DNA of 42,346 nt, taken from Richelia intracellularis (GTDB taxonomy: Bacteria; Cyanobacteriota; Cyanobacteriia; Cyanobacteriales; Nostocaceae). The notes under the pieces were generated by a model. The model was not told the origin of the DNA, ran no database searches, and saw nothing but the letters and a program-made list of their open reading frames with translations. Of this stretch, positions 4,242-34,583 are shown piece by piece (position 1 is the stretch's first letter; every line of letters begins with the position of its first letter). The position numbers and the translations under genes were made by a program. The stretch spans positions 1 to 42,346 of the forward strand of contig CBZS010000841.1 in the NCBI GenBank assembly GCA_000613065.1, in the 5' to 3' direction.

Positions 4242-5543
4242 TTAAAATCGCCCATTACCTTGGATAATATGCTTCACAGTCGTCAAACTTTCCCAACTAA
4301 TTAATCCCCGACGATTTCCTTTTTGGTTAGACATGCCTAAAAATATGGAATCACCACGGGAAGGATTGCGACAAAAACGAGGTGAAGCATTGATATAGGT
4401 AGAAGCACTGTTTACTCCCAAGGCAAATTGACGGCTTTCTTGGTAAGAATCCGTAACAATGCCGTCTGCATGACCGCTACTATATTCATTAATCCAAGCG
4501 ATCGCATGTTCTAAATCATCTACCAACTTAAAAGCAACTATTTTTTTTAAATAAGCATATTCCCACTCAGTATATTTAGCTAGATGTAATTGGGGAAAAG
4601 CTTCCACTAAATCCTGATCGCCCCTCAACTCAAAGCCTTTTTCTTGTAAACAATTACACAATATCGTCAAGGATGATGGCACACATTGGCGATGAATAAG
4701 TACTTTCTCAATGGCATTTACCGGATCAGGTTGGCTGGCATGGCTATCAATAATTACCCAGCGAACCATTTCCATGCTGGCATTGGGTGACCAATAAAGG
4801 TAACAGTTACCCATAGCTGACTTTAAAACCGGATAGGTAGATTGTCTAACAACCTGCTGAATTAGGCTAGAACGTCCATAGGGAATGGCTAAATTGATAT
4901 ATTGGTCTTGGGTAATAACGTCGCGGACAGAAGTACCATGTTCCTTAGTAATGAGTTGCAAGGAGCCCTCTGGTAGACCTGCTTCAGCTATAGCGAGGGA
5001 TAGAGCATGACCAATAGCTATATTGGAATTACTAGCTTCCGCACTACCTTTGAGAATAATACTATTGCCTGTTTTAATGCATAAACCAGCAGCGATCGCT
5101 GCGAGGTCCGGAAATGCTTCATAAATAAAAGCAATTACACCCAATGGCATGAGCTGAGAATAACTTTGGGAATCTTCCAGTTGATAATCAGCACTTCTAA
5201 CTTTTCGTAGGGGATCTGATAGTTCTCCTAATCGTTGTAAAATTTCCACCGTATTTTCTAAACGACTGGGAGTCAACTTGAGCCAATCTAAAATTAATTC
5301 TGGCACAGCCATTTCTCGACTAGCTTCTAAATCCAAAGTATTGGCTTCCAGAATTTCATCGGCAGAATTTTTGATTGCTTCTGCCATCGCTAATATAGCG
5401 CGACTGCGATCGCTACCTTTGCTAATGGCTAAACTCAAAGCAGCATCATAAGCACGCTTGGCATTGGTAATTATTTCTGGGCGTTCGTCAAAAGCATCCA
5501 CTGTCAAATTATTTTGGATTTTAGATTTTGATACATGGCTCAT
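4242..5543 (-). CDS. ProA-like protein (gamma-glutamyl phosphate reductase family) lacking catalytic Cys
   Basis: A 433-residue protein that aligns along its length with ProA, the NADPH-dependent gamma-glutamyl phosphate reductase of proline synthesis. It has the PLGVIAFIYEAFPDLAAIAAG block, KTGNSIILKG, INASPRFC and the C-terminal ESLTTVKHIIQG. At the active site, where ProA has RPxVCNAxE, it reads QPDPVNAIE (271-279), so the catalytic Cys is Val275. The nearest Cys is Cys287, outside the motif. The frame is intact and well conserved, which argues for a working paralogue with altered chemistry or a non-catalytic role rather than a pseudogene. No proB lies nearby. The name proA should not be transferred without checking for a Cys-containing copy elsewhere. 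Confidence 0.8.
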   Translation of the reverse strand: MSHVSKSKIQNNLTVDAFDERPEIITNAKRAYDAALSLAISKGSDRSRAILAMAEAIKNSADEILEANTLDLEASREMAVPELILDWLKLTPSRLENTVEILQRLGELSDPLRKVRSADYQLEDSQSYSQLMPLGVIAFIYEAFPDLAAIAAGLCIKTGNSIILKGSAEASNSNIAIGHALSLAIAEAGLPEGSLQLITKEHGTSVRDVITQDQYINLAIPYGRSSLIQQVVRQSTYPVLKSAMGNCYLYWSPNASMEMVRWVIIDSHASQPDPVNAIEKVLIHRQCVPSSLTILCNCLQEKGFELRGDQDLVEAFPQLHLAKYTEWEYAYLKKIVAFKLVDDLEHAIAWINEYSSGHADGIVTDSYQESRQFALGVNSASTYINASPRFCRNPSRGDSIFLGMSNQKGNRRGLISWESLTTVKHIIQGNGRF

Positions 5544-16563: not shown

Positions 16564-17442
16564 TTAATTACTCCCCCGTTGCTGGTAACTACTCACTGTA
16601 TTTTGCAACAACATTGCTACCGTCATCGGACCAACACCTCCAGGAACGGGGGTGAGAAAATGCGCTACCTTTTCTACTGAGGCAAAATCAACATCACCTA
16701 CTAACCTACTTTTGCCGTTGGAAACAGGGATGCGATTTATTCCCACATCTACCACAACTGCGCCCGGTTTCACCATTTCGGCAGTAATAAATTCTGGACG
16801 ACCTACAGCTGCAATGAGAATATCAGCACTTTGAGCCATTGTGGGCAAGTTTTTAGAGCGGGAGTGAGCAATTGTCACTGTTGCATCTGCTTCTAGTAAC
16901 ATTAATCCTAGGGGTTTACCGACTAAAATACTTCTTCCCACCACCAAGGCTTTTTTTCCTTGTAAGGAGATATCATATTCTTGAAACAGTCGCATCACCC
17001 CAGCAGGTGTACAACTACGTAAACCTGTTTCTTGGCGGACTAATTTACCCAAATTTACTGGATGCAGTCCATCCACATCCTTCTCTGGAGCAATATGGTG
17101 CAAAATTGCTACAGAATCCAGATGTTTTGGTAAAGGTAGTTGCACCAAAATTCCGTCAACTTTCTCATCTTGGTTTAGTTGCTGAATTACTTCTATAATT
17201 TCTTCTTGACTAGTTTCTGTGGTGAAATGTTTACCAAAAGAAGCAATCCCTACTTTGGCGCAAGCCTTTTCTTTCCCAGCAACATAAGCTGCAGAAGCTG
17301 GATTATCTCCAACCATGAGTACTGCTAAACCAGGAGGTCTACCTATTTGAGGTTGCAATTGCGCGATCGCCTGTAACAATTCGTAGTGGATTGCGGTGGC
17401 TAAGGCTTTCCCATCAAGTAATTGGGCTGTTTTTGTTTCCAT
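16564..17442 (-). CDS. folD: bifunctional methylenetetrahydrofolate dehydrogenase/cyclohydrolase
   Basis: A 292-residue FolD that interconverts 5,10-methylene-, methenyl- and 10-formyl-tetrahydrofolate using NADP. Visible motifs are [15 protein letters not shown] with the catalytic Yxxx[28 protein letters not shown], the nucleotide-binding [11 protein letters not shown] and the C-terminal [15 protein letters not shown]. Length is normal. It supplies one-carbon units for purines and formyl-Met. Upstream lies a 20-bp tandem repeat array, beginning about 220 bases from its ATG. Confidence 0.96.
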
Positions 17443-17664
17443 GCGACTGTCTTTTTAATTACGCTCATCCCGACACAAAAAAGAGCAATGCCTAGGCTAT
17501 CGCTTCACTTTTGTTGAACAATTAAGCCATACTATATATATTCTCAGATTGCTTGCTCTAGTTAGCTTTTAGCAAGAAAAAGTTTATTTAATTACTCCCT
17601 GGAGTTATGAGTTCTTGAATCATTTGAAAATGTTTACCACATAATAAAAATTCAATCTATAAAA

Positions 17665-17924
17665 ATGGCAACAAGATAAATATTATGGCAACAAGATAAA
17701 TATTATGGCAACAAGATAAATATTATGGCAACAAGATAAATATTATGGCAACAAGATAAATATTATGGCAACAAGATAAATATTATGGCAACAAGATAAA
17801 TATTATGGCAACAAGATAAATATTATGGCAACAAGATAAATATTATGGCAACAAGATAAATATTATGGCAACAAGATAAATATTATGGCAACAAGATAAA
17901 TATTATGGCAACAAGATAAATACT
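17665..17924. repeat. 20-bp tandem repeat, 13 units
   Basis: The unit ATGGCAACAAGATAAATATT is repeated head to tail thirteen times from 17665; twelve units are identical and the last ends ATACT. Each unit contains a five-codon mini-frame, ATG GCA ACA AGA TAA. Perfect identity implies recent expansion by slippage or gene conversion. Confidence 0.97.
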
Positions 17925-17965
17925 TATGTAAAAATCGGCTCTGTTAGTGCAGTTCGTATAAGAAA

Positions 17966-18340
17966 GTGAAAAATTTTTACATTTCTTTGGGTAATTTACG
18001 TTGGATATTTATCTATACTTTATTGCTGGGAATTATCAGTTGTGGCTATTTAAATCCTAGGGGTTTTAAGGCTATTGGTGCTCAAATAACTCCCATTAAC
18101 CAGCTAAAATCTAAGCAAAACCCAGATATTGTATATATTCAAGGAAAAGTAGAGAAGGCGATTCCCCTTCTAAAAAAAGAGGCATATCAAGTTAACGATG
18201 GTACTGGCAAAATTTGGATAGTAAGCAATCAGACTGGAATTAAACAGGGAGAATCTTTACTAATAAAAGGTAAAATCAGTTACAGAAGTATACCCTTGGG
18301 TGGTAAAGAATATGGCGAACTGTATGTAGAAGAAGAGTAA
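17966..18340 (+). CDS. OB-fold-like lipoprotein
   Basis: A 124-residue protein from GTG 17966. Residues 11-26 form a lipoprotein signal ending in the lipobox IISC (Cys26). The mature part (about 40-124) reads like a small OB-fold: IVYIQGKVEKAIPLL, YQVNDGTGKIWIVSNQTG, GESLLIKGKIS and a C-terminal acidic end. This is like periplasmic nucleic-acid-binding-fold proteins of unknown role. It starts 41 bases after the tandem array, which may sit in its promoter or leader. Confidence 0.6.
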   Translation: MKNFYISLGNLRWIFIYTLLLGIISCGYLNPRGFKAIGAQITPINQLKSKQNPDIVYIQGKVEKAIPLLKKEAYQVNDGTGKIWIVSNQTGIKQGESLLIKGKISYRSIPLGGKEYGELYVEEE

Positions 18341-18369: not shown

Positions 18370-18804
18370 ATGAAGCACCAATCAGTAGGAGTGGCGATCG
18401 CTATTCTTTATCAAGATAACAAGTTTTTAATGCAGTTAAGGGACAATATCCCAGGTATTCTTTATCCAGGCTATTGGGGACTATTTGGAGGACATATGGA
18501 AGAGGGAGAGAGTCCCCGCCAAGCTATTCAAAGAGAGGTGTTAGAGGAAATTAATTACGAACTACCAGGCACTTTTTCTGAGTTTGGGATGTACTCTGAT
18601 GACAAGGTAATTCGTCATGTTTTTCATGCACCACTGTCAGTTGAGCTAGACAAGCTCACCCTTAATGAAGGTTGGGACATGGGTTTACTCTCCTCAGAAG
18701 ACTTACATCGCGGTGACTGTTACTCTGCGAACGCTCAACAAGTTAAACCCCTCGGACCCCTACATCAACGTATCCTTTTAGATTTTATAGCGAAGGTAAT
18801 GTGA
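18370..18804 (+). CDS. Nudix hydrolase
   Basis: A 144-residue Nudix protein with the Nudix box starting at Gly41, GHMEEGESPRQAIQREVLEE (41-60). The usual Gly near the end of the box is Asn62. Family members cleave nucleoside diphosphates linked to another group (ADP-ribose, oxidised dNTPs and so on); the substrate cannot be told. It follows the lipoprotein gene by 29 bases on the same strand, so the two are probably co-transcribed. Confidence 0.85.
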   Translation: MKHQSVGVAIAILYQDNKFLMQLRDNIPGILYPGYWGLFGGHMEEGESPRQAIQREVLEEINYELPGTFSEFGMYSDDKVIRHVFHAPLSVELDKLTLNEGWDMGLLSSEDLHRGDCYSANAQQVKPLGPLHQRILLDFIAKVM

Positions 18805-25014: not shown

Positions 25015-25420
25015 GAATTCACCACCACATTGGCATCAGTATGTTAAGTATTGTAACAATAGGTTGAGAGTAATGCATATACTTCTATCAAGAGGGTACA
25101 GAGAAATATATAGTCTTTTACTTTTGCTTATATCTCTAGTCTAGAAGTAAAGATTTTCCAGTTAACTTTACTTCCTAATCTCTTACCTAGGATAATTACT
25201 TACACCCAGTACTCATAATAAGAATGGATATATACAAAATATATTGAACTCAAACTAAGCTAGTTTTGATAAAGTAAAATGACCCTGTCTAATTCAATGT
25301 TAACGGTTTATGACAAGGAAACAAGGGGAAGCTTTTACAAGTACCAACTACCAACTATCAAAATTCCCCATTCCCCATTCCCCATTCCCTAGTATCTGCC
25401 ATAACGGAGAATGAAACCGA
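25015..25420. other. divergent intergenic region (ABC1 kinase / recN)
   Basis: About 400 AT-rich bases with no ORF. Should hold promoters for both genes; no certain LexA site was found. Contains the heptamer array at 25364-25389. Confidence 0.5.
25364..25389. repeat. TTCCCCA heptanucleotide tandem repeat
   Basis: Three perfect TTCCCCA units plus TTCCC, 32 bases before the recN start. Short heptamer arrays of this kind are typical of heterocystous cyanobacteria. Confidence 0.85.
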
Positions 25421-34440: not shown

Positions 34441-34498
34441 TTTTAGATTTTAGATTTTAGATTTTAGATTTTAGATTTTAGATTTTAGATTTTAGATT
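34441..34498. repeat. TTTTAGA heptanucleotide tandem repeat (about 8 units)
   Basis: Eight perfect 7-base units beginning right at the orphan ISKra4 end, then a T-run. Shorter copies of the same motif lie near other gene ends (for example 32880 and 35530). Confidence 0.9.
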
Positions 34499-34583
34499 TT
34501 TTTGAACAGTTTGTGGCGATGATTTCCATCCACAAAAGTTTTCAAGACGAATTTTAGATTGAATGGACAATGTTCCTATTTCC

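Follow-up and report, generated by a model that had tools for sequence, protein, structure and literature searches.

The folD–lipoprotein spacer and its tandem array

The window analysed here, a stretch of 42,346 nucleotides from the filamentous cyanobacterium Richelia intracellularis, carries a tandem array between folD and a lipoprotein gene, which diverge from it on the minus strand (start 17442) and the plus strand (GTG 17966), respectively, as the first-pass annotation had placed it. The features of the locus are as follows.

16564–17442, minus strand: folD, start at 17442, divergent neighbour of the array (Pfam THF_DHG_CYH)
17658–17663, plus strand: −10-like TATAAA adjoining the first unit (L090 and L091 also have TATAAA, L092 has TCTAAA), a putative promoter
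17665–17904, plus strand: 12 identical copies of the 20-bp unit ATGGCAACAAGATAAATATT, every one containing the mini-ORF ATG GCA ACA AGA TAA (Met-Ala-Thr-Arg-stop)
17682–17911, minus strand: 11 promoter-like sites facing folD (TTGCCA, 18 nt, extended CATAAT), made by unit junctions
17905–17925, plus strand: variant 13th unit of 21 nt (ATGGCAACAAGATAAATACTT), retaining the ancestral 21-nt ATG-to-ATG spacing of the sister genus
17926–17931, plus strand: ancestral start of the lipoprotein gene, placed by alignment, its ATG now running straight into TAA (L090–L092 have ATG CAA)
17932–17965, plus strand: former N-terminal codons, out of frame, with one extra base relative to the sister genus and TAG at 17945–17947 in the present frame
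17966–18340, plus strand: intact lipoprotein gene under purifying selection, read from a putative restart GTG; its product has lipobox IISC and an OB-fold domain
18370–18804, plus strand: NUDIX hydrolase gene, conserved downstream neighbour

TRF reports a period-20 tandem array at 17665–17928 with 13.1 copies, 99% matches and a score of 519. The unit listing resolves it into 12 identical copies, each carrying the mini-ORF that the first-pass annotation had read in every unit, and a 13th (17905–17924, ...ATACT) with one change from the other 12. The earlier description of thirteen perfect units thus holds for twelve and fails for the last, which is better taken as a 21-nt unit (...ATACTT) followed by the old ATG of the lipoprotein gene. 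A chance origin of the array is excluded by the 12 exact copies. The units are head-to-tail and near-identical, as in a VNTR, and the copy number likely varies from isolate to isolate. The source genome is a draft of 5.49 Mb in 857 contigs, and a search of this assembly with up to two mismatches, a check that the annotation had suggested, found the unit at no second site; in a repeat survey of the window plus 100 own contigs (596 kb, ~11% of the genome), the next-best tandem repeat scored 172 versus 519 for the array.

The folD–lipoprotein gene order is widely conserved: most of the retrieved cyanobacterial loci have it, usually with the NUDIX gene next in line. In the stretch that separates folD from the array, TATTCTCAGATTGCTTG at 17539–17555 matches the motif TTATCTTCTCAGATTG, which is kept in the folD–lipoprotein spacer across several related genera and is possibly a promoter element of one or the other gene.

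Single-copy state and coding ancestry of the unit

In the nearest genus that retains the lipoprotein gene, represented by three genomes (L090, L091 and L092), the repeated segment is present once (e.g., TAAAAATGGCAATATGACAAACATTTATGC), directly before the old ATG of the lipoprotein gene, and the window, when its array is reduced to a single unit, can be aligned to this copy from the −10-like box to just before the GTG, with no gaps across the unit. The single copy in the sister genus thus demonstrates expansion of the segment, though not polymorphism in copy number. In L090 and L091, the left-end ATG lies 21 nt from the gene ATG; in the window, the last unit keeps 21 nt and the other twelve have 20 nt. 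A comparable array occurs in none of the 81 other folD–lipoprotein spacers (82 examined), where the relatives have short and mostly heptamer-type repeats, and a 103-nt probe searched against 100 relatives returned the window, a single copy in G032, short weak matches and nothing else. The array is carried by one genome only, and the earlier claim that it must be young agrees with the single copy in the three nearest-genus genomes, the lack of an array in the other spacers and the identity of the copies. Alternatively, selection or recurrent conversion could keep the 12 units identical in the leader of a constrained gene. A phage origin was considered and rejected, as the two-unit junction was not found in viral contigs.

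The same comparison bears on whether the copy number is an assembly error, with the true number different and possibly few. The draft state of the genome and the tendency of short-read assemblers to mis-size arrays speak for such an error, but the unit is single in relatives with diverged sequence, both array ends have the expected ancestral flanks, and perfect arrays are usually collapsed rather than expanded by assembly, so that we regard it as very unlikely.

In the more distant presumed Nostoc genomes, the segment is an open part of the lipoprotein reading frame (MKLATKQA...; MGTDLMKLATKQAVKQKFAQ...; MGTDLMKLATKQAVKQKFAQSVAFMQQ...), the ancestral N-terminal codons reading K-I/L-A-T-N/K-Q-A.... 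In this frame, the window has K-M-A-T-R-stop, where the sister genus has K-I-A-T-stop or K-M-A-I-stop. Since the segment is coding in presumed Nostoc, each ATG GCA ACA AGA TAA is a relic of the eroded N-terminus of the lipoprotein gene and not a designed element, and the mini-ORF as such is a by-product of the descent of the unit from decayed coding sequence. Other genera have independent stop or frame-shift breaks of the same N-terminal region. In the g8 genus (L095, L098, L099, L103 and L107), a conserved 15-codon ORF, MKIVTSQALMPKLAQ-stop, lies directly before the lipoprotein start and is apparently a detached, still well conserved N-terminus; the loci L104 and L099 closely resemble each other, but one has ~190 bp inserted between this ORF and the lipoprotein start relative to the other. 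We considered whether the g8 ORF is instead a separate conserved leader peptide and rejected this, because the segment is in frame in presumed Nostoc and in another frame at some loci, for which a repeatedly truncated N-terminus is the simpler reading. A regulatory uORF or leader peptide would have a conserved separate peptide, and MATR-stop is found only in the window.

Leader and present start of the lipoprotein gene

The old frame of the lipoprotein gene is broken, as its ancestral start is now ATG-TAA, with another stop and one inserted base further on. In the present frame, the sequence is open only past the TAG, and the first usable start is GTG 17966, with TTG 17987 as an alternative; GTG 17966 corresponds to a Val codon in the relatives. 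Since the old start now reads ATG-TAA, we infer from the sequence that the gene restarts at GTG 17966, ~13 codons downstream, or at the nearby TTG.

Downstream of the start, the gene body is free of stops. The dN/dS on the window branch is ~0.25 for the lipoprotein gene, 0.11 for folD and 0.13 for the NUDIX gene (three-way arithmetic from pairwise values), and that of the lipoprotein gene is 0.16 for the sister-genus pair L090–L092; the value of ~0.25 indicates that the lipoprotein gene was constrained for most of the window branch. A homologue occurs in 212 of the 218 family genomes. The lipobox lies in a signal sequence, and the protein also has an OB-fold-like domain, with a sub-threshold match to the NirD/YgiW/YdeI OB-fold model (NCBIfam) and weak OB-fold Pfam matches in 24 of 32 homologues. 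Its AlphaFold2 model has a five-stranded domain (mean pLDDT 77.7), which Foldseek matched to OB-fold proteins, namely tRNA-synthetase anticodon-binding domains, Stn1 and HIN.

The gene was undetected in G001, the sole other sequenced genome of the genus (3.2 Mb, ~90 contigs, 88% complete), although folD and NUDIX were both found there, so at least one close relative can do without it. The loss could reflect the reduction of this genome, but a 382-kb contig carries both flanking genes. Near position 133740 of this contig (G001:C64, locus L120), ~1.3 kb of apparently non-coding sequence separates the intact folD and NUDIX genes. The genome of the diatom symbiont Richelia HH01 is ~3.24 Mbp (PMC8969518).

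The array itself probably lies in the leader of the lipoprotein gene, after the −10 box, as suggested by two features of the sequence: the repeated segment derives from the old N-terminal codons, and the weak −10-like TATAAA, for which the sister genus has TATAAA or TCTAAA, adjoins the first unit. Upstream of the array, a −35 element is not conserved in the alignment with the sister genus. The suggestion that the array alters promoter spacing of the lipoprotein gene is consequently less likely, while capture of ribosomes by each unit, also raised in the first-pass annotation, is possible. The unit lacks a clear Shine-Dalgarno sequence, and the neighbours folD and NUDIX lack one as well, so the units could initiate without one. 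A structured RNA element would be expected to belong to a known family or to fold better than shuffled sequences; the Rfam search of the window gave no match, and RNA folding of the array was weaker than that of shuffles on both strands (z +1.1 and +2.9).

Proposed birth of the array, and its likely effect

Based on these comparisons, we propose, and hold to be rather likely, that slippage recently amplified a single-copy segment of a decayed leader into the array, and that the array is near-neutral or mildly repressive; the slippage mechanism, the transcription of the array and any expression effect are inferred. The source would be the last 20–21 bp ahead of the ancestral ATG, once coding and interrupted by a stop in the lineage of the window. 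The ATG at both ends of the 21-bp ancestral segment may have provided the microhomology for a first duplication, and one base would then have been lost to give the 20-bp unit, which expanded; duplication across ATG...ATG, one-base loss and expansion would form the simplest path. Lying within the transcribed leader of the lipoprotein gene, the array would either have no effect on the gene or mildly repress it by lengthening the leader and adding 13 start-stop mini-ORFs to it, and it may be tolerated because the lipoprotein gene is becoming dispensable, as its absence from G001 suggests.

Alternatively, slippage could add or remove units in the leader and so change how well the mRNA of a surface lipoprotein is translated or how stable it is, giving the population heterogeneity of a contingency-type locus. 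The units are identical and placed between the −10-like box and the start, the lipoprotein is exported, and the uspA2 5′ UTR of Moraxella catarrhalis offers a studied precedent (PMC4679880); however, the gene is lost in the genus-mate G001 and its start is damaged in the window, and the unit length switches no frame, because each mini-ORF closes inside its own unit. We therefore judge such tunable expression unlikely. Somewhat less probable still is a newborn translational rheostat, in which the 13 mini-ORFs from the dead N-terminus of the gene would load ribosomes before the restarted gene, with slippage resetting the dose.

The array could also be a set of new tandem promoters that strengthen transcription of folD, the lipoprotein gene being a bystander. 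The 11 sites facing folD have 10 of 12 consensus matches plus a TG extension, and such a site arises in only 0.9% of shuffled tandem units on either strand, a statistic chosen post hoc; however, they amount to one independent match repeated 11 times, to a consensus that is E. coli-like, and the folD leader would exceed 200 nt, which makes this reading unlikely too. It is also conceivable that a protein or small RNA binds the units; spaced 20 bp, or two helical turns, apart, they lie on nearly one face of the DNA. Against this, the unit comes from coding codons with no dyad symmetry seen, it recurs nowhere else in the genome, and the window has no Rfam match, and we hold it to be most improbable.

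Taken as amplification of a decayed leader, the array is a known kind of thing with an unusually clear ancestry. Borg perfect tandem repeats arise recently and independently and have A-rich, SNP-free units, and one intergenic Borg array consists of 20-nt units plus a near-perfect 21-nt unit (PMC9879509). The Richelia array is likewise A-rich, with 20-nt units and a 21-nt unit, which makes this the closest precedent in form, but Borgs have many such arrays, whereas Richelia has one in the genome sample, on a bacterial chromosomal contig. As a leader array, its closest studied precedent by analogy would be uspA2, in which AGAT repeats vary from 6 to 23 copies among strains with an effect on expression; both are perfect arrays between a promoter, here a putative one, and the start of a surface protein gene (PMC4679880). 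The uspA2 unit is, however, a tetranucleotide with demonstrated variable number and expression effect, whereas the Richelia unit is decayed coding sequence. The birth of a perfect array at an eroding gene start is here a clear worked case, in which the single-copy state, the origin of the unit and the decay of the gene are all readable from relatives; if the array affects expression, it would exemplify how a leader array is made from what was once coding sequence of the same gene.

A search of the literature returned nothing relevant on tandem repeats in Richelia or on repeat-bearing upstream ORFs in cyanobacteria. Heptamer tandem repeats are typical of heterocyst-forming cyanobacteria, and tandem repeats of this heptanucleotide STRR kind occupy the same folD–lipoprotein spacers in the relatives; in contrast to their 7-bp units, the Richelia unit has 20 bp, is confined to one locus of its own genome rather than dispersed, and descends from the adjacent gene. 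The window also has heptamer repeats, namely TTTTAGA × 8.6 (34441–34500) and ATTCCCC × 3.9 (25363–25389), and in a Nostocaceae MAG (L011), arrays of 43–46 bp units (GTAGGGGCGCAAAGCTTGCGCCC...) lie near folD at 2292–2719 and 4359–4678.
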